Shown: positions 4,875 through 54,870 of the stretch, in pieces
Numbering within the stretch: position 1 is the stretch's first letter
How the letters are laid out: the number at the start of each line of letters is the position of its first letter
Assembly (NCBI GenBank): GCA_011033025.1
Contig: WFMF01000698.1
Location: 1 to 64,000 of the forward strand
DNA: 64,000 nucleotides
Source: Beroe forskalii
Taxonomy: Eukaryota; Ctenophora; Nuda; Beroida; Beroidae
Reading direction: 5' to 3'
Notes under the pieces: generated by a model
Database searches by the model: none
Seen by the model: the letters and a program-made list of their open reading frames with translations, nothing else
Told to the model about the DNA's origin: nothing
Translations under genes and position numbers: made by a program

Positions 4875-5360
4875 TCAAAGTAGGATACATGTCGTTTTGA
4901 TGCATGCCATCCCCTCCTCACGGCTCTCTGCAACATGTTCTTTGACAAACTCTTTAACACCCTCAGGGATGTTGGTCAGGATGTCCTTAATCTTTTCTTT
5001 GAGTGTCTCATCGTCGCTGGCGAAGTCCCTGATTTTGTCCTTCAGGTCATCGACATTATCCTCCAGTTTACCTGCAATTTCAGCATGGTTTTTGATGAAG
5101 GTTTTTATCTGTTCCTCGATACCGTCTGGGAATCTGTAAAGGAATTGTTGGATGTCTTCCTTCAATTCACCATCAGTGCGGGTAGCCAGGTAACCTATGA
5201 CTTTAGCTGTCAGCTTCTCAACAAAGGCAGCCTGGCTCACTGTTATGTTAGCGAGTTTGTCCCTGAGGGAGCCCCCAGTCCCTGGCTCAGTACCCGTCTC
5301 ATCACCTACAGCAACCGTAACAGCGAGGAATGCAACGAAAAGTATGCTTAAAGTCTTCAT
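4875..5360 (-). CDS. Small secreted amphipathic-helix protein, unknown family
   Basis: A single-exon reading frame of 161 aa. Residues 1-19 form a clear signal peptide (MKT start, hydrophobic core, cleavage after AVG). The rest is acidic, Lys/Glu-rich and strongly helical. Two 30-residue segments (65-94 and 119-148) match in register: both have LKE-x-I at the start, a central P-[DE]-G-[IV], then K-x-[FH]-[IV], so the protein holds an internal duplication. Two cysteines occur only at the C-terminus (153 and 158). The last four residues CILL look like a prenylation box, but a secreted protein should not use it. A TATA box lies 50 bp upstream. The family is not recognised; a lipid-binding or structural secreted role is possible but not shown. 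Confidence 0.75.
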   Translation of the reverse strand: MKTLSILFVAFLAVTVAVGDETGTEPGTGGSLRDKLANITVSQAAFVEKLTAKVIGYLATRTDGELKEDIQQFLYRFPDGIEEQIKTFIKNHAEIAGKLEDNVDDLKDKIRDFASDDETLKEKIKDILTNIPEGVKEFVKEHVAESREEGMACIKTTCILL

Positions 5361-5409
5361 AGTGACAGATTTGTGTTTTCGAACTGATTATGCTTGAAAA
5401 ATTCTGGAG

Positions 5410-5416
5410 TTTTATA
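5410..5416 (-). promoter_or_regulatory. TATA box of the secreted-protein gene
   Basis: TATAAAA on the minus strand, 50 bp upstream of the ATG at 5360, which places transcription start near 5385 with a short 5' UTR. Confidence 0.7.
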
Positions 5417-7353
5417 GTGTGGTGAAAGAGGGTAACGACTGGGAAATTCCAGCAGTTTTTATTCCACTAGAGCAGCATCTATGAAAAATTAAAGTCATTG
5501 TCGATGACTTTTTGCCATCTACCGTTTTGCCACCCTGGCACTAAGCGATGAAATACGTGACGACGGGAACCTGGAATTAAAAATATAACATCATTAGAAG
5601 TCTGAGCTTAGATTATAGCTAACATTAAAACATAGCATCAACTTCCACAATGACTTGATATCGTATTGTAAGAGAATTTACCTGTTAGAAAAAAGACATA
5701 AAATCACTCGACAATAAAGATAAATTTACGGTTTACCCCTGATCAGTATTATATTCACTTATGTAACACAGGTGTTAAGTGAAGGACAGTTTTAAATAAT
5801 AAATTTTTCCACATCGCATATAAACAAGTATTATGAAGTGAGTAGAATAACAGCAGAGAATAAATATTTTTATAGTTGACAAACAGTTCAACTATATAAA
5901 CTTCATTGTTTTATGGTGAAAAGTTTTTTGTTTTTTTTCTTTTTTTTGTTTTTTTTCTTAGGTGAAAAGGTTTGATGAAAAGGTTTTGATGAAATCGATC
6001 CAGCAAGTTTTTGACAAATAATCAATTGCAAGGTTTGAGTGACCTGAGCATTGAACCCAAATTCTGTCAGCTAGCTGCAGTGATCAGTTTAACTCGATGT
6101 CACTACACCAAAACTCCCAAATACTCCGACTTCACTGATACGCTAAAGGAGCACTGACGTGTTAAACTCTGCACTGTGTATGACTTTTTATGCCACAAAT
6201 ACGACGTTTTTATTATGTAACAACCATTTTCCGGGCACTTTTCAGATTTAAAAGTACGGATAAAGGGAGTATACACAAATTGTCCCATAATCCTCCAAAC
6301 CACGTCCATTTATAACCCTCTCAATTGCCTTTTTGTAAAACAAAGGGCGATTGGAGAGGTAAAATAGTATCATTGATCTATCCAGAATTTGTCCATTGCT
6401 AACCCTTACAATGACTTTTTTTAAAGCAAAAAGTCGATTGGGGAAGGAAAAATTCCTTGATCATAGGTATGCTCATTATATGGGCTGCTGGTTGTCCAGA
6501 CGTGGCTGTCAGACTGAGCAGGCCCAGTAAAGCATGGAAATTGTGAAAAGTAGTTTAGTTTGCCTTGGCCGGGAAGGAAACAGCTTGTCATTGAGAAAGC
6601 ACCTTACAACTGCGGCTGGGGCTGCTGGCCAAAGAACGTGGATTCACTGAAAGACCCGGAATAATAAAGGACGAGGCGAACCGCCAAGGATTCGACAAAG
6701 TCATGGGGCTTGTGGGTTTCGAATTAAAAATTCGCCCATTCGTGGCAGTGACAAGATTTTGTTCCAAAATTAAGTTAATGGAATTTTTCTGAATATTTAA
6801 TCTAATTTCAAAAGTCATAATCCATTTTAAAAGTTAATCCTTTCATTGGGATATGCGCACGGTATGTGAGGTAGTGTCTGGTGTATGTGTGAGTGCGAGG
6901 TAGCAAAGAATTGGGTGGGATGTAAAGTTTATTATAGAAATAGGAATAGTTTTGGGAGTGGGAAAAATATTTTGATAGTTTGTTAGGCAGTTAAAAATAG
7001 GGCTCCATAGGGTGGATAACTTGTCGTGTAATTAAACGTTAGACCTAAGTGTTAGAGTGTGGGGATATTCTGTGAGGGTGCGTGGTGCGATTATTTATAA
7101 ATTGTACATTGTTTTATCTTAATAGATATTATAATTCTTGGAAGTTCCACCTGTTTTCCACTCTGTCTCCTGTGTCTAGTTGCCTTCGCCACCCGAACAC
7201 CAATTGTAACCACCAAAACAACCTGCTTTTGAAACTTGATGTCTTCCATAGCAACTTTTTATGGAGTTTTGGATGTTGCTCCTCTTGGTGCAGTCCAGTT
7301 GGGGGGTATGCCCTCCCGGGTTGCAGGCATGGATCCACAGGGCATGCAGAGGG
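5417..7353. other. Intergenic, with two hairpins and a weak open segment
   Basis: No supported gene. At about 6309-6355 and 6398-6450 there are two hairpins of the form AACCCTCTCAATTGCC ... complement, matching the terminal hairpin of the 1.1-kb elements at 11596 and 49905, so they are probably solo ends of related copies. A + strand frame around 6600-6830 is open and reads like protein (L-A-K-E-R-G-F-T-E), but has no start, splice sites or recognised family. A T-rich run lies at 5927-5960. Confidence 0.5.
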
Positions 7354-9404
7354 TACACTCAGTTTCTTTTATAAGAAACTGTCTATAAGAAACTTAGCCT
7401 AGGATTCTCAAAAATTTAAGAAACTTAGCCTAGAATTTCGGAAAAATTAAGAAACTTCATTGATTTGAAATTAAGAAATTACGAAACTTCTAGCCTAGAA
7501 TTTTGAAATTTGTGTATAAAATCCTATTGAAACTGAAATTCTTTTAACATGAAACGTCTGGCTTCTGGGGGCTGCACCCCCAGACCCCCACTTTTTGATT
7601 GTAAACATTTTGATACTAATTAAGAACTTATTTTGGCCTTCTATTACAGTATTACACTGGACATGTGATAATTGATATGTACAGAAAGTTAGAAAATGGC
7701 TCTTCCATGATTTGTCGTTAAAAGTAACATATCAGATACCAAAGCACAAGCAGAAATTGCTGTTGAGACTGAGAGACAATAGCTCCATATTTATTCTCAT
7801 GAGTCCAGAAAGCCACTAGCCAGAACCTCGGTACTTTAGACAAGAGCTTCATTTCCAAGGCATTGGACTCGGCTACGGTTTCCATCTAGATATTATCTAG
7901 ATAAGATTATCTAGATAATTTGCAAAAAATCTTTGTCTATTTATCTAGATAATTTATACTAGATATCTAGATAAATTTAATATCCCTTTTGTCGAGAAAT
8001 TTCGGATAAAATCGCCTTTTCTTATAATTTCTTCAATAATTATCGGATTTCAGGTATTCAAAATTCCTGATCTGTTAATTTTCATACTGGATTCGGAGAT
8101 CTTAGGTTTGCATAGATGGACGTGGACAACTCATTTCATACTTCTATGAACATTGCTCTATGTTTAGGGGCCCAAGGTTCATGGACAGGCTGTTTAGCTA
8201 GTTAGCTGTTTGGCTTCAAGTACAATCTGTTTAACTGATAATTTGACGGTTGACCTTTGTCAAACTGAAATGAATAACGACACAATTAGAATAGAAGATG
8301 ATGTTCAAAGTATCTTATCACATCTTACAAATCGTCATTTGCCACTCGAGCGAAAGTTTAATACCTACTCTTTAAGTCTTAACACTCGATATTCTGCTCC
8401 CAATTTTAAATGTAACAAACTATTGACTAAAAAATAGGCTGTAAATAGTATTTACAGCTACTTTCGTTCATATTACGCCCGAATGTAGCCCCCGGCTATG
8501 GCAAAGTAATTGTTTGAAACTAGCATACAAAATGAACAAAATTAGAGCATTCAGCTCGAGGAAATAGATGGGAATTTAATTTCTTCTTTCTTATTATCAA
8601 TTCTACCAGCACTCCAGCAACTCCGAGAGCACCATCATGAAATCTACCTTATTTGAATTTCCTTATCAATTGACTCACTTCCGATCAATAATGCAAGTAT
8701 TCATAGCAACTAATTGGTAGAATGTAGATGATGAGGTTGTTGTAATGTTGTTACTTTATTCTTTTTTATTGGAGAATTGATGGGTGATGACTGATTTCAA
8801 CTCAATCAGAATGAAGCAATGAATGTCCAGAACTTTTGGTGGTCAATAATATCATTCATTTCAATAATCAGTACAATAGCCGAAAGCTGGTTATACGATG
8901 ATATTCCACTGCAATGCAACGGTTGTGCATTTCTTACGTTGAAAATCGTGTCAAATTTGTATAAATTTCGGATTCAAAAATTATCTAGATTATCTAGATA
9001 ATCTAGATAATGGCGAAAAAATTATCTATTTATCTAGATAAAAGATTTTGAGTAGATAATGGAAACCCTAGACTCGGCTAAATAGTTCAAAATCTAAATT
9101 TCATAATTCGTGAACTTTTTTGGAAGCACTTTTTAGAAGATCCATGAAGATTTTTGTATAGGGGTTTCACGAATCTTTACGATGTTATGTATAAACTAGC
9201 TCAATATACCTAAAAGTTTGATTTTAAGCATCACCTACAGTCTACAGAGCAGGTTCCTGTATCGGAAGTTTCACACATATTATAGTAGCATAGTATGCAG
9301 AATTAAGAAACCGATTAAGAAACTTTTAGGCTCAAAATCTTCAAAAAATAAGAAACTTGTAGCCTAGGATTCCAATAAGTTTCTTATAAAAAAAACTGAG
9401 TGTA
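7354..9404. mobile_element. TA-flanked TIR DNA transposon, non-autonomous
   Basis: The left end TACACTCAG (7354-7362) is matched by its complement at 9396-9404, followed inwards by an AAGAAACTTAGCCTAGGATT-type subterminal repeat that recurs in inverted form near the right end. A TA dinucleotide flanks each end, suggesting a Tc1/mariner-like target duplication. After removal of the nested hAT element (7874-9070) about 0.85 kb remains, with no transposase. A small GC-rich hairpin follows directly outside at 9410-9445. Confidence 0.75.
7866..9078. mobile_element. Nested non-autonomous hAT element with 8-bp TSD
   Basis: The 8-bp sequence GACTCGGC stands at both 7866-7873 and 9071-9078. Between them the ends read TACGGTTTCC and, on the other strand, TAGGGTTTCC, giving short hAT-type terminal inverted repeats. 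Just inside both ends are clusters of ATCTAGATAAT-type palindromic motifs (7884-7978 and 8979-9055), as expected for subterminal transposase-binding sites. No transposase frame is present in the 1.2-kb interior. It is inserted within the TA-flanked element 7354-9404. Confidence 0.85.
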
Positions 9405-35824: not shown

Positions 35825-36570
35825 ACGACACGAAAAAAGGCGCCTGTGCGTCTTTTCTTGCAAAAGAAGACGCGCACGCGTCTTTTATTGCAAACGATTA
35901 AACGAAGACACGCACGCGTCTTTTTTGCAAACGAAGACGCGGCACACGCACGCCGCACGCGTCTTCTTTGCAAACGAAGACGCGGCACACGCACGCGCCA
36001 CGCGTCTTTTTTATTGCAAACGAACGCGAAGATGCGCACGCGTCTTTTTTGCAAACAAAGACGCGCACGCGTCTTTTGCGAATGGGAAGACGCCTGCGCG
36101 TCTTTTTTGCAAACGAAGGCGCGCACGCGTCTTTTCTGCAAACAAAGACGCGCACGCGTCTATTCTTGCGAATGGGAAGACGCCTGCGCGTCTTTCCAAT
36201 TTTTTTTTGCGAAAGACGCGGACGCGCGCGCGTCCTTTCATGCGAAAAAAGACTCGCGCGCGTCCTTTTTCGCGAAAGAAGACGCGCGCGTCCTTTTTCG
36301 CGAAAGAAGACGCGCGCGTCCTTTTTCGCGAAAGAAGACGCGCGCGTCCTTTTTCGCGAAAGAAGACGCGCGCGTCCTTTCTTGCGAAAGAAGACGCATG
36401 CGCCTCGCGCCTTTACTTGCGCAAAAAGATTGTCAGACGTTGTCTGACCATTATTTCGGCGGACGCGCGCGCGCCCGCCGAAGGCGAAGGGGTCAGACAA
36501 CGTCTGACAACAAAAAGACGCGTGCGCGTCTTTTTTTTCGAAAGAAGACATGCGCGCGTCTTTCTTGCCC
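35825..36570. repeat. CG-rich palindromic satellite (GACGCGCACGCGTC)
   Basis: About 20 tandem units of 28-42 bp. Each has a CG-palindrome (GACGCGCACGCGTC or GACGCGCGCGTC) and a CTTTTTTGCGAAAGAA-type spacer, itself a near-palindrome. The 3'-most units are nearly identical (28 bp), the 5' ones diverged. A larger hairpin with GTCAGACGTTGTCTGAC ends sits inside at 36430-36512. The long open frames that cross the array on both strands arise from the repeat and are not genes. It ends at a CCCTAACCAGG motif (36569). Confidence 0.85.
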
Positions 36571-39828: not shown

Positions 39829-41554
39829 CCCTTTTACCGATGTGTCTATTTTATACAAACTGTTGTCCACTTTTAACTCCAGACTATGACCATTCCATTG
39901 ATTCCATTCCATTAAGGGGGAACAGAGGAGCGCCCTTAAAGACAACAAAGAATTTAACATTAAGGGGTCTAAAAGAGCCAATTGTATCTATATGTGTTCA
40001 GTTCATTCAATTACCGGAGGACTTTTTCACTTTTTACTCTGTAACGTGTAAGTTTGTTTTGCTGAAATTTCATTGTGTTTCTTGTATACCTAACTAGTAA
40101 CTTTATTTGAATTTTTAGTTGCAAATATGTCAGGTTTTGGTCATATATTCGTCCAGTCATAGTGGAGCACTATACTAGGTATGGGGCATTCCTTGTCGGT
40201 CACTGTATGATTTTCTTCATAGTGCGCCTTGGGACCATCTGATTCCAGATTTTATTTATCTCCATAATATTACGTCTTCTATAATACTACTAATAATTCT
40301 GCTCTTTTAATATCTGCCCAAATGTATCGCCACAGTCGCCAATGAATCCTAATGAATAATCCATATCCCAACCATTAACCAAACCTCACTTGTAGCCAGC
40401 CAATGTAGCTGTGGATGATAATCACATGATTTTCGAATGCTTCAGACGATAACACTATCGTTCATGATTATAACGTTTAAATTTCAACCTCTTTGAGCCA
40501 TAGCACAGGTTTTGGTAATGGTGTGGTGAGGGTTAGAGTTTGGATAAGGGTTCATAGTCAACTGTAATATGCAGCAAACCCATCGCTGATTATGGAAATT
40601 CACGTAGGTATTCATTGCGGACAGTGGCGACAGTGAATGTAGTGGATCATCGTCGAAATTGGTGATAGTCAATAACCATTACCTACTATGGGTGTTTGGC
40701 GATCTTCAAGGGCGCTAGGAGATCACGATTTATATTGAAGACAGTGAGTGTCGCCAATGAATGTCAATCAATGTTTATCACTGTCGCTTTTGATGACAAT
40801 GGCGATACAAATTGCCGATTGGCGATATTTCCAATAATATCTGACACTTTGCCTACCATTCGTTGCATATATCGTCTCGTTTCCTGATGCCAATTGATTG
40901 TCGATTTCATGGTCCACTTCCTTCTGGATTTTAATTATGTAAATATGAATAGCAGGATTGTTGAATATTTCTTATTAAGCCAAGTTATTTCATATTTACT
41001 ACTTATCTATTTTGTACATTGCAGATTTAAGTTTACGATTTTGAAAAATTGATTTTATTCTGAATTCTTAGGCATATTTCAACTTTATACAATCAAATTT
41101 GAGGCATGGGCCCATGGATTGCTGACGACTTCCTGGATTTCACGCAAGAAACAGCAGAGCATTGGATTGACGATATTACCAATATATTATAACGTGACTT
41201 GAAGGTACTTTGTTATCTTTAATCCATTAAAATTATGCGTTATGTGCTTATGTTATAAAAATGATTAATCATGTCGGTTAAATTGAAGCAATAAAAGTTG
41301 AGAGCAATAAAAGTTCTGTCCGAATATTTGTTTACAAAAAGGTTGTGAGACAACAAAAAAATTATAAAAACGTGTAACATTGCTATTGCGGCATTTGTGA
41401 TTATACAGAAAAGATTTAGATTCTTTTCAGAAATATTCTTCGTTCATTTTTCCGTACTCTAAACAGAAAATTAAAAATGCAGAGTATCTTAATTATAATT
41501 TCGTAAGAGCATTAATTAATTCTTCCGTGCCGCCTATGCAAACAGGGGGAAATT
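39829..41554. other. Intergenic, no supported gene
   Basis: Loose repeats of GTCGCCAATGAAT / GGCGACAGTGAAT in both orientations occur at 40330-40830. A small open segment at 41105-41192 (start ATGGGCCCATGG, acidic 28-residue product) is followed by a possible donor but has no recognised family. ATTATAACGTGACTTGAAG at 41187-41205 recurs at 48572. Confidence 0.4.
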
Positions 41555-44500
41555 GGCTCCCCTATTCCCGAGATCTAAATACAGAGTTCACCGTACGGAG
41601 GCTTCCCCCTAAACCTGGGATCACCTCTTATCACGGACTCCCCTGTACACTGCTCCCCTTAATCTAGGGCTCCTCCGATTTCCCGGGGCTCACCTCTATA
41701 CCCGGTCTCGCCCATACCAGACTCACCCTATTGCCGGGCTTCACCATACCAGGCTCCACCGGACCTCGGGCTTCACCAATGCCTTGGGATAACCCCGATA
41801 CAGGGGATCACCGTACCAGGCTCACCCTTACCTTGGGGCTTGCCATACAGGCTCACCTGATCCTCGGGCTTCACGGATGTTCTGGGATAACCCCGATACA
41901 GGGGCTCACCCGTACCAGACTCACCCTATCTTGGGCTTCACCATACCAGGCTCCACCGAACCTCGGGCTTCACAGATGTTCTGGGCTCACCCTCAAACAT
42001 GGCATCACCCATACCAGGCTCACCCTTACATTGGGCTTCACCGTACCTGGCTCAACCTTATCCTGGGCTACACTGATGTTCTGGGCTATCCCTGAAACAT
42101 GGGATCACCCATACCAGGCTCACCCTTACCTTGGGCTTCACCGTACTTGGCTCCACCTAATCCTAGGCTCCACCATAACTTGGGCTCACCCTGAAACATG
42201 GGATCGCCCATACGAGGCTCACCCTTACCTTGGGCTTCACCTTACTTGGCTCCACCTTATCCTGGGCTTCGCCATAGCTTGGGCTCCCCCACACTTATTT
42301 GGGCTCCCCCTACCAACTCGGGCTCCCCTATACTAACTCGGGCTCCCCCACACCAACTTGGGCTCCCATATACCAATTTGGGCTCCCCCATACCAATTTG
42401 GGCTCCCCCATACTCCCATACTAACTAGGGCTCCCCATACTAACTCGGGCTCCCCCATACTAACTCGGGCTCCTCCATACTAACTCAGGCTCCCCCACAC
42501 TAACTCGGGCTCCCCCATACTACCTCGGGCTTTACCACATGTTACGTGTCCCTGTTTGTTCGCGCTTGCGCGCGCAAAATAAGGCTCCGTAACATGGAGT
42601 AACCTCGGGCTCCCCCATACTAACTCAGGCTCCCCCATATTAACTCGGGCTCCCCCGTGCAGTACGGGCTCCCCCATACCAACTTGGGCTCCCCCGTTCT
42701 AATCGGGCTCCCCCATACCAACTTAGGCTCCCCCGTGCTGTTCGGGCTCCCCCATACCAACTTGGGCTCCCCCGTTCTGTTCGGTCTCCCCCATACCAAC
42801 TTGGGCTCCCCCGTGCTGTTCGGGCTCCCCCATACTAACTTGGGCTCCCCCGTGCTGTTCGGGTTCCCCCATACTAACATGGGCTCCCCCGTGCTTTTCG
42901 GGCTCCCCAAACCCAACTTGGGCTCCCCGTGCTGTTCGGGCTCCCCCATAACTTGGGCTCCCCCGTTCTGTTCGGGCTCCCCCACCAACTTGGGCTCCCC
43001 CGTTCTGTTCGGTCTCCCCATACCAACTTGGGCTCCCCGTGCTGTTCAGGCTCCCCCATACTAACTTGGGCTCCCCGTGCTGTTCAGGTTCCCCATATAA
43101 CATGGGCTCCCCATTGCTTTCGGGCTCCCCCATACCAACTTGGGCTCCCCATTGCTGTTCGGGCTCCCCATACCAACAGGCTCCCCATTGCTTTTCGGGC
43201 TCCCCCATACCAACAGGGGCTCCCCATACCAAGTCGTGCTCCCCATAATGTTCAGGCTCCCCATACCAACTCAGACTCCAACACACTGTTAGTGCTGCCA
43301 TGACACAATCTTAGGCATCCATGCACTATTTATACTCCCCATGCCTATTTTGGACTTTGGGATCCCCCTTCCTTTCAGTATAAGGGCTCTCTATTTGACT
43401 CAGGCTCTCCATCTACGTACGTCGGCTCTCCATACAGTTTTAAATGAAAAACATTATGAATAGTACTAAATCAATGGATTCAATTAAATTGAAAAATTAG
43501 AATCAGGAATCCCAATGAATTAATTCTAAACAGTATTAGGAAATTTGAATAACATGATTATTGACTATTATTATTAAGAGAACTTTGGATAATTGATAAA
43601 ATCTTTGTAAGCGTCACTTCGTGCTTAGGAAAAGCCCGCCTCTGACACCCCAGAAAACCAGTAGATTAGGAAAGGGGCACGAGGGCGAGCCCTCGTTATT
43701 CAAATTTTCCAGCTCGCAATACCCTGAAAGCTCTAATTGGGACTGCTCCATGCGGGGCAATATCCTACGTATCAGAGGCCTTTCCGGGTTCACTGTCTGA
43801 TAGAGAAGTTGTGTTATCCAGCAAAGTCTTGGACCAGCTGATGGTTCCAGGGGATCTAATTCTGGCCGATAAGGGCTTCTCGGTGCAAGACATTTGTCCT
43901 GATGGTAATTATACGTTAATTAAGGCGTACCCTTTTTCTATTTTTTCATTCACCTAGTTTGGAACGATTTTTGTCTTCAAAAGCCCGGACAGAACGGGGG
44001 AGCCCAAGTTGCTATGGGGGAGCCCGAACAGTACGGGGGAGCCCATGTGAGTATAGGGGAGCCCGAACAGCACGGGGGAGCCCAAGTTGGTATGGGAGAG
44101 CCCGAACAGCACGGGGGGCCCTTGTTAGTATGGGGGAGGCCGAACAGCACGGGGGAGCCCATGTTAGTATAGGGGAGCCCAAACAGTACGGGGGAGCCCA
44201 AGTTGGCATGGTGGAGCCCCTAAATTGGTTTGGGGAGGAATAGAACGGGGGGGGCTAAGTTGCTATGGGGATTTTGGGGAGCCTATGTGAACAGGAGCCT
44301 GAACAGCACGGGGGAGGCTGCCAGGCGGAGAGCCAACAGCACGGGGGCCCTATAGTAAAGGGGGGCCCTGAGGAGCACATGGGGGCCCAAGTCTGTATGA
44401 GGGAGCCCAACAGTACAAGGGAGACTGTATGGGGAGCCCAACAAATGAGGAGGGGGGGGAGCCCAACAGAACGGGGAGCTCCAAGTTGGCTGGGGCCCAG

Positions 44501-46078
44501 AAGTTAGTATGGGGGCCTGAGGCATGGGGTAGCCTGAGGGGCGGGGAAGGGAGTTGGTATGGGGCAGCCTTGAGTTAGTGTGGGGAGCCTAAGGTAGTGG
44601 GGAGCCCGAACAGAACGGGGGAGCCCAATTGGTATGGGGAGCCTGGGGTTAGTATGGGGAGCCCTGAGTTAGTATGGGGGCCTGAGTTGTATGGGGGAGC
44701 CCAGTTAGTATGGGGCCCAGCCTGAGTTAGTGTGGGGGAGCCCAAGGTTGTGGAACGGGGGAGCCCAAGTTGGTATGGGGGAGCCCGAACAAAATGGGGA
44801 GCCCAAGTTGGTATGGGGGAGCCTGAACAGCACGAGGGAGCCCAAGTTGGTATGGGGAACCCGAACAGCACGGGGAGCCCAAGTTGGTATGGGGGGCCAA
44901 GTTGGTATGGGGCCCAGACAGCAGCACGGGGGAGCCCAAGTTGGTATGGGGGAGCCTGAACAGCACGAGGCCGTTGGGTGGAGTTGACTGGGGGGCCAAG
45001 TTGGTATGGGGAGCCTGTACTGTATGGGATGAGTGTGGTATGGGGCCTGGGTTGGTATGGGGTAGCCTGAGTTGGTATGGAGGCCCGAGGTAGTAGCCTG
45101 GGTTGGTGTGGGCCAGCCTGAGTTGGTATGGGGAGCCCTAGTTAGTAATGGGGGGGGCCGTTGGTATGGGGGGTATGGAGTATTATGGGGGGTATAGCCC
45201 AAATTTATTATATGGGGCCCAAGTTGGTGCGGGGGAGCCCGAGTTAGTATAGGAGCCCGAGTTGATGGGTGGATGTATAGGGGAGCCCAAGTTATCATAG
45301 GGGAGCCTGGAGTTGGTAGGGGGAGCCCAAATAAGTGTGGGGGAGCCCAAGCTATGGCGAATCCCAGGATAAGGTGGAGCCAAGTACGGTAAAGCCCAAG
45401 GTAGGGTGAGCCTCGTATGGGCGATCCCATGTTTCAGGGTGAGCCCAAGTTATGGTGGAGCCTAGGATTAGGGTGGAGCCAAGTACGGTGAAGCCCAAAG
45501 GTAAGGGTGAGCCTGCTATGGGTGATCCCATGTTTCAGGGATAGCCCAGAACATCAGTGTAGCCCAGGATAAGGTGGAGCCAGGTACGGTGAAGCCCAAT
45601 GTGGGTGAGCCTGGTATGGGTGATGCCATGTTTGAGGGTGAGCCCAGTACATCAGTGAAGCCCGAGGTTCGGTGGAGCCTGGTATGGTGAAGCCCAAGAT
45701 AAGGGTGAGTCTGGTACGGGTGAGCCCCTGTATCAGGGTTATCCCAGAACATCCGTGAAGCCCGAGGATCGGGTGAGCCTGGTATGGCGAAGCTCAAGGT
45801 AAGGGTGAGCCTGGTACGGGTGAGCCCCTGTATCGGGGTTATCCCAAGGCATTGGTGAAGCCCGAGGTCCGGTGGAGCCTGGTATGGCGAAGCCCAGCAA
45901 TAGGGTGAGTCTGGTATGGGCGAGACCGGGTATAGAGGTGAGCCCCGGACAATCGGGGGATCCCTAGATGAGGGGGAGCGGTGTATAGGGGAGCTTTCAT
46001 AAGAGGTTATCCCATGTGTAGGGGAAGCTTTGGTACGGTGAACTCTGTAATTTGTGATACCTAGAATAGGGGGAGCCC
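41555..46078. mobile_element. 4.5-kb giant foldback element with tandem-repeat arms
   Basis: The left arm (41555-43450) and right arm (43960-46078) are inverted copies: GGGATCACCTCTTATCA and the CAGAGTTCACCGTACGG block at the left return as complements at the right. Each arm is itself tandem: an outer zone of GGCTTCACCGTACC/GGCTCACCCTTACC units and an inner zone of about 39-bp units (GGGCTCCCCCATACCAACTT plus a CCCCGTGCTGTTCG half). The 0.5-kb centre is unique and holds a DDE transposase fragment. Because 39 is a multiple of three, long frames run through the arms in several phases; they are not genes. Left and right boundaries are set by where the arm similarity stops. Confidence 0.85.
43700..43945 (+). 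pseudogene. DDE_Tnp_4-type transposase fragment at foldback centre
   Basis: In one frame from about 43715 the sequence reads R-Y-S-N-F ... N-T-L-K-A-L-I-G-T-A-P-C-G, then Y-V-S-E-A-F-P-G-S-L-S-D-R-E, then P-G-D-L-I-L-A-D-K-G-F. This is the order and spacing of the DDE_Tnp_4 domain (Harbinger/IS4EU-type nuclease family): the N-T-x-K-x-L-I-G-x-x-P-x-G strand, the P-G-S-x-S-D turn and the catalytic second Asp in A-D-x-G-F. Upstream, around 43650, the frame is broken by stops, and the remaining catalytic acidic residue region downstream is lost. So this is a relic of about 70 residues, and it marks the foldback element as derived from a DDE_Tnp_4 transposon. Confidence 0.8.
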
Positions 46079-46105
46079 TTGTCACCAAAACGGATACATG
46101 GGCTC

Positions 46106-46826
46106 CCCCTACTTGCCAACCCCATTAAATTTGACCTTGCCAAGAAAATATCAACTTATCAAGAGAAACGAACGGGGAAAATGTGCTTATTGGCACCGTT
46201 GCCATGGGTACTGGAAACTGCACGTGCAGGTCAAGATCAGTTGTATGCGAGTACTTTCTGATACGTTGCTAACTGCTGCGTCGTGATTTTTGTAAATTTT
46301 ACGTATTCTACATTTAAAATTGAAGATCTTAAGATAGAGAATGGGTATGGCTGGCATTGGGGAGGCTATAGGCGATAGAATTCCCTTTATGAATCAGTGG
46401 CAATGGTCGGTCAATTTATAAAATCGACGATTAAATTGGTTTCAACTAAATAATGTAAATCGAGCAATTATTGAAAGAAATTTAAGATTAACCAAGGCAA
46501 AATCAAATTGAGCAAATTGGGCATGGCATATATTATTGCTTATTTGGGAATCTTGGCGTAAATCATGCGCAAGTCAACGTTTAGTATGCATGCACGGTTC
46601 TCAGTTTGCAGTTAAATTAACTTCGTCATACAATTGCAATTAGACAAAACTGGCCTTCATGGGACTGCATTACTAAAAGTGACAAACGGATTATTGTAAA
46701 TTTTGCTCCTTCATAAACTTTTTCATACTTCAAAATTTCATACCGCAATTTTGTAATTCTGCGAGGGAGGCGGGACGTAGCTCCGCCGAGTGAGCTACGT
46801 TTTAGCAGGCCCAACGGGCCTGCTAG
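46106..46826 (+). mobile_element. Helitron, 5'-truncated (first of the array)
   Basis: Body sequence (AAATTTGACCTTGCCAAG, AGAGAAACGAACGG, TGCACGTGCAG) matches the 47457-48258 Helitron. The 3' end has the hairpin GCAGGCCCAACGGGCCTGC followed by CTAG at 46823-46826, the canonical Helitron terminus. Its 5' part is missing where the giant foldback element ends. Confidence 0.75.
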
Positions 46827-47137
46827 TCTCTAATATAATTTCGCAACCTCTGTAATATTATTTTGTACCTCCGTCACGTTTTTTGTCCTTTTGTAGACAC
46901 ATTTTGAAGCGTGCACGTGCAGTATGGATATAGGCGCGCGCGTTGCCATGGTTACATATTGAGCGCGCGCGTTCATTTCTATTTAATGCTGTTTGAGTAC
47001 GTTGCTGCGTAACTTTTGATGTGTTAGGAATTTTTTGATGCGGTAAAAAGTATTGAGTTGATTTGAATTTTGCGAACGAGGTGCTGCGTAGCAGCGCCGA
47101 GTGAGCTGTGTATTTGCAGGCCCTACGGGCCTGCTAG
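46827..47137 (+). mobile_element. Non-autonomous Helitron A (311 bp)
   Basis: Starts TCTCTAATATAATTTCGC, ends with hairpin GCAGGCCCTACGGGCCTGC and CTAG. A GTGCTGCGTAGCAGCGCC hairpin lies 50 bp before the end. It begins with the very base after the preceding CTAG. Confidence 0.85.
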
Positions 47138-47456
47138 TCTCTAATATAATTTCGCAACCTCTGTAATATTATCATTATTTTGTACCTCCGTCACGTTTTT
47201 TGTCCTTTTGTAGACACATATTGGGGCGCCCACGTGAAGTATGGATATATGCGCGCGCGTTGCTATGGTTACGTATTGCGCGCGCGTTCATTTCTGTTTA
47301 ATGCTGTTTTGAATACGTTGATCCGTTATTACTTTTGATGTGATTGGAATTTTTTGATGCGGTAAAAAGTATTTGGTTGATTTGAATTTTGTGAACGAGG
47401 TGCTGCGTAGCAGCGCCGAGTGAGCTGTGTATTAGCAGGCCCAACGGGCCTGCTAG
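47138..47456 (+). mobile_element. Non-autonomous Helitron B (319 bp)
   Basis: Near-identical to Helitron A (same TCTCTAATATAATTTCGC start, same subterminal and terminal hairpins, CTAG at 47453-47456) apart from a short ATC insert and scattered changes. It joins A directly without host sequence. Confidence 0.85.
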
Positions 47457-48258
47457 TCTTATATATAAAGTAAAGTCACACGTGAATAATGTTGGTATGT
47501 GCCGCCGTCCACAATTAAATTTGAGCTTGCCAAGATGATATCAAGAGAAACGAAAGCAAAAGGGAGAAAAGAGGCGCCGTTGCTATGGAAACCAATTTTT
47601 TGCACGTGCAGATGATAATCAGTTCTATGCAAGTGCTTTCTATTACGCTACTAATGTTAAATGCTGTGCTGTAGTTTTTTGAAAATTTGACGTTTTCTTT
47701 ACTTCAAATCTAAGATCTCAAGAGTCAAGGTGGAGAAAGGACATAACTTGAATAACGGAGGATATTTCAAATGAATTGTTTTCTGTGGCAGAGTTTGGCA
47801 GATAATCAATGCTGAGTCGGTGATAACAATAGTAGCTATAGTTTCGAAATTAGCCGTTTAGTTCACTAAAGTTTAAAATTCAATCGAGTCGAATTTAGGT
47901 GTAGCAGATTACAAAGACAGTTTTTGGCCTGGATTAACGTAAACAAAACAAAATGGTCCAATGTCAGTATCAGTATGAGAATTAACATAGACTTCTTGCA
48001 ATCAAAACGGAACGCTGGAACAAAACTCATGGTTTAGGATAACTAACACTAACCGACGCCGTTCTATTTTCCACTCTGCTCCTTCATAAAATTGAATAAT
48101 TATTTAATTGATTTCGTTACGAATAACTTTTGATCTAATTGGAATTTTTGATGCGGTAAGAAGTATCCAATCGATTTGAATGGTAGTTTTTAAATTTGCG
48201 AATGAGGTGCTGCGTAGCTGTGTGATCTGTGTATATGCAAACCCAACGGGCCTGCTAG
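47457..48258 (+). mobile_element. Non-autonomous Helitron C (802 bp)
   Basis: A different subfamily: starts TCTTATATATAAAGTAAAG, a common Helitron 5' end, and shares the 3' end with A and B (AACCCAACGGGCCTGCTAG). Its 3' hairpin is weakened (GCAAACCC instead of GCAGGCCC). A minus-strand relative is at 50705-51303. No Rep/helicase frame is present. Confidence 0.8.
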
Positions 48259-54528: not shown

Positions 54529-54870
54529 GCGTCTTTCCTGCGAAAGAAAACACGCCTGCGTCTTTTTTTGACAAAGAAGACACGCGCGCGTCTTTTTTTT
54601 GCAAAAGAATACACGCGCGCGTCTTTTTTGCGAAAGAATACACGCGCGCGTCTTTTTTGAGAAAGAAGACACGCGCGCGTCTTTTTTTTGCAAAAGAATA
54701 CACGCGCGCATCTTTTTTGAGAAAGAAGACACGCGTGCGTCTTTTCTTGCAAAAGAAGAAACACGCGCTTTTAAGTAAAAGAAGACGCGTGACCGTCTTT
54801 TCGTGCGAAAGAAGACGTGCGCGCGGCGTCTTTTTTGCGTAAGAAGGCGTGGGCGCGTCTTTTTGTATAT
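54529..54870. repeat. CG-rich palindromic satellite, second array
   Basis: Tandem units of about 38 bp with ACACGCGCGCGTCTTTTTT and GCGAAAGAA spacers, the same family as 35825-36570. It starts directly at the outer hairpin of element copy R. Confidence 0.85.

Follow-up and report, generated by a model that had tools for sequence, protein, structure and literature searches.

A foldback transposon family with a DDE_Tnp_4 relic in Beroe forskalii and its probable origin from an ISL2EU element

To which transposase lineage does a foldback element belong when its long tandem-repeat arms enclose a piece of a DDE_Tnp_4 gene? Such an element lies in a 64,000-nt stretch of the ctenophore Beroe forskalii (contig WFMF01000698.1, positions 1 to 64,000; here, the window), which lies on contig C800 of a 216-Mb, 1134-contig assembly. 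All genome searches reported here cover that assembly. An initial annotation had proposed that this architecture is linked to the DDE_Tnp_4 (Harbinger/IS4EU-type) lineage. We observed a genome-wide family with sharp L and R terminal inverted repeats (TIRs) that inserts into A|AT|T and duplicates 2 bp, and the relic of a DDE_Tnp_4 exon with its intron border. The element is probably (at about 0.8) a foldback DNA transposon that is non-autonomous and belongs to the ISL2EU group in the PHIS superfamily; the family most likely descends from an ISL2EU transposon and is moved in trans. We assign it to ISL2EU because of the A|AT|T target, the GG tips and the nearest relatives of the core exon, which lie beside YqaJ genes. 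The proposed link is supported and narrowed to ISL2EU within PHIS; we take the label IS4EU to mean ISL2EU.

A blastn search with the core (43600-43960) gave 16 matches in the genome, including itself, on ten contigs. Seven other matches span the query fully or nearly, and the remainder are shorter, down to 37 bases; in several copies, the core is shortened from its right side, to differing points. About 9.9 kb of sequence was taken around each of the 15 other matches. In all 15, the arm sequence to the left of the core was of C-rich sense only and that to the right was of G-rich sense, as in the window. Additional C-sense sequence in L043 belongs to a next element starting inside the stretch, and the left arm was covered only briefly in L037 (contig end), L048 (4.4-kb insertion) and L049. 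The copies were 93.7-100% identical to the window over 43572-43984 or what survives of it. As the core lies between the same arms in all 15 other copies, it is not a chance insertion into one copy, a possibility that the initial annotation had raised.

The ends of the copies are well defined. The sequence GGGGTTGGCAAGTA is present at both ends, with 108 exact matches in the genome versus 2 for the reversed control. Two distinct subterminal sequences lie behind it, L (TGGGAGCCCGGGAATAG...) and R (GGGGGAGCCCATGTATC...). At up to 3 mismatches, 85 L ends and 58 R ends were detected, and none with the reversed controls. Among facing neighbour pairs within 16 kb, 30 of 31 were L+R and one was L+L, while 49% mixed pairs are expected at random (binomial P 6e-9). 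The outer 100 bp are 98% identical between L ends of different copies, 97% between R ends, and 85% between L and R. As single strands, both ends form strong hairpins: the L end at -25.9 kcal/mol (z -6.9) and the R end, an 81-nt DNA, at -17.6 kcal/mol (z -4.2), with 0 of 200 shuffles as good in either case. When the core is in the sense of the window, all copies with ends read have L at the left end and R at the right end, except L048 on C358. Its right end is L, and an R-like end (3 mismatches) at C358:358011 is likely its partner; therefore, the core of L048 is probably inverted. Distances within end pairs are mostly 0.2-9 kb (319 to 13542 bp among the facing pairs listed), and the smallest copy read directly has 181 bp (L052 on C215). 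By eye, the broken ends (left in L039, right in L035, left in the window) stop in or beside the subterminal hairpins, as if the hairpins had been cleaved. Members cluster on contig C170 (1.17 Mb), which holds 7 of the 16 core matches and 13 of the 143 ends.

The initial annotation had called for a target-site analysis of several insertions, and this gave a clear result. For insertions with both ends, the flanking dinucleotides agreed in 19 of 19 cases, with AT in 17 and AC in two (L046 and L060/L061). The two AC cases show that the dinucleotide is the duplicated target and not part of the TIR. In 64 distinct flanks from 79 ends, some of them near-identical members of one nested family and thus not independent, T was found at -1 in 62, A at -2 in 62, A at -3 in 57, and C or T at -4 in 55. 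A paralogous empty site across the joined flanks was detected for at least 5 of the 19 insertions (40 of 2538 candidates were scored). All five empty sites have a single dinucleotide and no insertion or deletion at the join. Identity was 137/138 bases for L043, 127/127 (with AC) for L060/L061 and 97% for L057. At L036 (93%), the mismatches gather near the join; L062/L063, the most diverged (85%), has gaps elsewhere. ISL2EU elements have 5'-AT-3' target-site duplications in A|AT|T and TIRs of 6-259 bp that usually start with GG (PMC4482050; this and the other papers are cited from excerpts). The foldback family shows the same 2-bp AT duplication in A|AT|T, and GGGGTTGGCAAGTA starts with GG.

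The core carries part of a transposase gene. Its open frame of 95 aa matched DDE_Tnp_4 (PF13359) with 59 bits and E = 5.4e-16 over positions 19-93 of the 158 in the profile, which bears out the family named by the initial annotation, and both nuclease motifs noted there, PGSLSD and ADKGF, are in this frame. We take ADKGF to contain the second catalytic Asp of DDE enzymes. The splice donor after this exon is at the same position as in two genes on contigs C547 and C389, so the core is a fragment of a genomic gene. A splice acceptor directly before the exon was considered and was not supported by comparison with C389. In L048, the next DDE exon, with HVER (presumably the catalytic Glu), lies on the opposite strand, flush against the arm. 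Leaving C547 and C389 aside, queries with exons of C547 detected no exon for the first catalytic Asp in L035-L059, the loci that had been fetched, and no YqaJ piece in the foldback copies among them, although a short piece diverged to 50% could escape this search. The absence of YqaJ is expected for a non-autonomous element. DDE pieces were the only ones detected in the foldback copies examined, and none of these copies appears able to encode a transposase.

The variation among copies fits a relic. In an alignment of 10 copies, mostly without those of short core, 8, 6 and 4 variable sites fell at codon positions 1, 2 and 3 of the exon (18/192), with 33/169 in its flanks; without the badly aligned L042, the counts were 3, 3 and 3 (9/192) and 14/169. 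We read the exon as a relic because there is no excess of variable sites at third positions. The somewhat lower variability of the exon than of its flanks speaks mildly against this.

The sole relatives of the core exon outside the foldback copies at E <= 0.001 were C547:611504-611710 (54%) and C389:88845-89078 (49%); PF13359 has 35 matches in the genome, nine over all 158 positions. HTH_Tnp_4 was found at both loci (at C547 with 34 bits versus a cut-off of 27), as were both halves of DDE_Tnp_4, in two separate blocks. A YqaJ gene lies upstream in the same orientation, with 33.6 bits at C547 and 28.7 at C389 (cut-off 22, exons joined). The YqaJ protein is a relative of lambda exonuclease, and the best solved relatives of these two genes were an exonuclease and lambda exonuclease itself (E = 0.003). 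Most autonomous ISL2EU candidates have such a pair of genes, for a DDE/HTH/THAP transposase and a YqaJ exonuclease (PMC4482050).

The two intron-bearing pairs of YqaJ and DDE_Tnp_4 genes occupy C547:610678-615255 (L050) and C389:88306-93700 (L051). Their proteins are 94-99% alike in the three DDE-side exons compared, and the loci are under purifying selection relative to each other (ratio of nonsynonymous to synonymous divergence, dN/dS, 0.11 at dS 0.51, in eight chosen exon pieces). They may be either old ISL2EU elements or host genes derived from such elements. Two candidate features of C389 were rejected. A tip-like site (up to 2 mismatches) lies in a run of G between the two DDE exons; GGGGTTGGCAA is absent there at up to 1 mismatch. 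An arm-like array sits between two YqaJ exons and appears to be an intronic insertion, not an arm of that locus.

The coordinates of the element in the window are in Table 1. The two mirrored arms of about 2 kb around a short core, as described by the initial annotation, were confirmed by Tandem Repeats Finder (TRF), inverted-repeat pairs and motif counts, so the element has the form of a foldback, with long inverted tandem-repeat arms around a middle domain. The earlier unit length of about 39 bp is correct for the inner arm, while the outer arm is a repeat of about 100 bp. Likewise, 41555..46078 was right as a location and too short as a size, since the element reaches 46123 on the right and has a missing or degraded left tip near 41544.

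Table 1. Features of the foldback element in the window
Feature	Position	Strand	Evidence
Whole element, window copy; left tip lost or degraded	41544..46123	+	alignment of ends; blastn with the 15 other copies
Outer left arm: tandem units of ~100 bp behind L-type subterminal sequence	41544..42277	+	TRF periods 99 and 199; 98% identity among outer L ends of other copies
Left arm, inner part: 39-bp tandem units of two ~20-bp halves with GGGCTCCCC	42278..43254	+	TRF, 39 x 24.3
Unique core, 730 bp	43255..43984	+	blastn of cores; at least partly present in 16 copies
Open frame with middle DDE_Tnp_4 exon	43670..43957	+	Pfam PF13359; splice donor GT at 43905-43906
Right arm, mirror image of left	43982..46068	-	TRF, inverted-repeat pairs, motif counts
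R-type subterminal hairpin (GGGGGAGCCC ... GGGCTCCCCC)	46069..46109	-	DNA fold of 81-nt R end
Right TIR GGGGTTGGCAAGTA, on the minus strand, tip inward	46110..46123	-	exact matches genome-wide
AT of target site, right flank; left partner lost	46124..46125	.	end alignment, flank comparison

TRF placed 39-bp units at 42278-43225 and 43982-44219, 38-bp units at 44758-44895, and units of about 100 bp at 41711-42270 and 45359-45920. Among the 25 longest of 359 inverted-repeat pairs between the arms, lengths reached 242 nt at 81% complementarity, and shorter pairs had 94-98% (for example, 41638-41812 versus 45819-45993 at 94%). We counted 41 copies of the motif GGCTCCCC in the left arm and 33 in the right arm once this was reverse-complemented; opposite-sense copies numbered 0 and 1. 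Only 2 copies were found, counting both strands, in the remaining 59.3 kb of the window, a contrast that stands in for a shuffled control. Identity between L and R arms was equal within and between copies (0.851/0.854 in the outer, 0.940/0.943 in the middle and 0.939/0.933 in the inner part; 10 versus 211 pairs, leaving out arms that could not be typed, such as the left arm of the window), so gene conversion between the arms of one copy is not supported. The G-rich part of the right arm at about 44240-45350 is irregular by eye and possibly poorly assembled, and the number of units there is uncertain. Noise resembling homopolymer errors was seen by eye in this region and in the G-rich right arms of L045 (about 5000-6300, oriented) and L042 (about 8300-8600). 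Left arms, which are C-rich, appear cleaner, as though one side of the palindrome had defeated the sequencing or the consensus.

An intact autonomous copy with the ends of this element, which the initial annotation had hoped for, was sought genome-wide by protein, profile and exon searches and did not turn up. The queries were the core protein, PF13359, PF13613, PF09588, the second DDE exon and the YqaJ exons. When the 44 DDE, HTH and YqaJ matches were compared with 33 end pairs, mostly from lists with up to 3 mismatches per end so that pairs with worse ends would escape, only 5 fell between paired ends, namely the second exon at C358 and four core-exon copies. A partial second exon on C527 was rejected as an autonomous copy; 4 kb of sequence there held a single stray arm motif and lacked an array.

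Several observations weigh against an ISL2EU origin. No autonomous element with these TIRs was found in the genome. A family-level search of the genome for YqaJ (PF09588) gave no match, single exons being below the cut-off, and the domain at C547 and C389 rises above it only when exons are joined. A THAP-like motif was not seen with a simple pattern in the fetched stretch of either locus. GGGGTTGGCAA, at up to 1 mismatch, was also absent from the fetched 9.9 kb at both, and both are only about 50% identical to the core exon. The TIRs, with a shared tip of 14 bp and inverted arms of about 2 kb, exceed the published range of 6-259 bp, which is a description of 25 families and not a mechanistic criterion (PMC4482050). 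The right arms are in part unreliable sequence, more so in two other copies than in the window copy. Finally, capture of the core, in place of inheritance, is conceivable in principle.

The last point leads to an alternative that we consider unlikely, a foldback of another superfamily whose core picked up a small piece of a transposase gene from ISL2EU. Pack-type elements capture exons in this manner. Three facts would agree with capture: just one exon, with remains of introns, is recognisable in the core; the search for an autonomous copy with these ends was negative; and most described foldbacks are assigned to Mutator (PMC4079207). However, the target site and the tips, which depend on the moving enzyme, are of the ISL2EU type. 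The dinucleotide pairs and empty sites exclude the 8-10-bp duplications of Tetris and Mutator-type foldbacks, and a second piece of the same kind of gene is present in another copy (L048).

An origin from the PIF/Harbinger or Spy branch of PHIS has still less to commend it. These branches have similar DDE transposases and share the preference for AT-rich targets, but PIF/Harbinger elements duplicate TWA and Spy elements insert in AAATTT without duplication (PMC4482050). The dinucleotide pairs and empty sites show neither a 3-bp TWA duplication nor duplication-free insertion into AAATTT; the duplications are 2 bp, AT or AC, and the nearest DDE genes adjoin YqaJ. A palindromic satellite or assembly artefact is hardly credible, even though tandem arrays make up most of the element, some G-rich right arms appear badly assembled and 7 of the 16 core matches are on one contig, since the ends are defined and are the same on copies of very different size, the flanking dinucleotides are identical in 19 of 19 cases, the core matches are spread over ten contigs, and the empty sites (at least 5 of 19) refute it at the level of the family.

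Under the ISL2EU reading, an ISL2EU element would have lost most of its genes, and sequence with the motif GGGAGCC would have been amplified into tandem arrays at both ends. This motif also adjoins the tip at each end. An ISL2EU transposase encoded elsewhere would then bind the ends, and perhaps the arrays too, and would pair one L with one R end for cut and paste, leaving 2-bp duplications. The palindromic arms might afterwards permit deletion of the core, its inversion, and the formation of miniature derivatives. In a more speculative version, which seems rather improbable to us, the foldback form itself would be a product of the ISL2EU DDE and YqaJ pair: the nuclease would resect the ends, the repeats thus exposed would anneal, and arrays would grow and be copied to both ends. 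If so, the arms would be the footprint of the enzyme pair, and ISL2EU would make foldbacks by single-strand annealing.

Other repeats were noted along with the element. A second family with a related tip, GGGGTTGGCAACTAT, has 49 sites in the genome, for example at C605:46600-48700 (L100), where two GGGGTTGGCAACTAT tips stand back to back around TTTAAA. At C605 and many other sites, the left end of a foldback element lies about 500-850 bp inside this second family, often after the same flank. In the window, two arrays of a similar palindromic unit of about 29 bp (GCGTCTTTTTTGC / GAAGACGC) are at 35848-36397 and 54529-54864, and a 319-bp unit is repeated 2.2 times to the right of the foldback element, at 46776-47468 (TRF).

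How does this family compare with known systems? With ISL2EU it shares the AT duplication in A|AT|T, the GG start of the TIR, and a DDE_Tnp_4 relic whose nearest relatives lie beside HTH_Tnp_4 and YqaJ; it differs in having tandem-repeat arms of about 2 kb in place of TIRs of 6-259 bp, and no two-gene copy was found here (PMC4482050, PMC9179366). Foldbacks seem mostly to be Mutator elements, Galileo of the P superfamily being one of the exceptions (PMC4079207). Galileo of Drosophila also has long foldback-like TIRs with tandem repeats, which hold further binding sites for its transposase, but this transposase is of the P type (PMC3688188). Tetris and Mutator-type foldbacks resemble the present family in their tandem-repeat arms, middle domain and non-autonomous state, and Tetris has a miniature relative with the same ends, DAIBAM, as the small copies do here; they differ in duplications of 8-10 bp and in their suggested assignment to Mutator (PMC4079207). 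We found no foldback form of ISL2EU/IS4EU in the open-access literature, the broader searches being judged from the openings of abstracts of the papers listed.

If true, an ISL2EU foldback would add another transposase lineage to those in which this architecture arose independently. Galileo and this family would jointly support a general rule, by which arrays of end-related motifs can be favoured at both ends of cut-and-paste transposons. The family is a ready test system: its L and R ends are defined, empty sites exist, and there are natural derivatives of about 0.2 kb.

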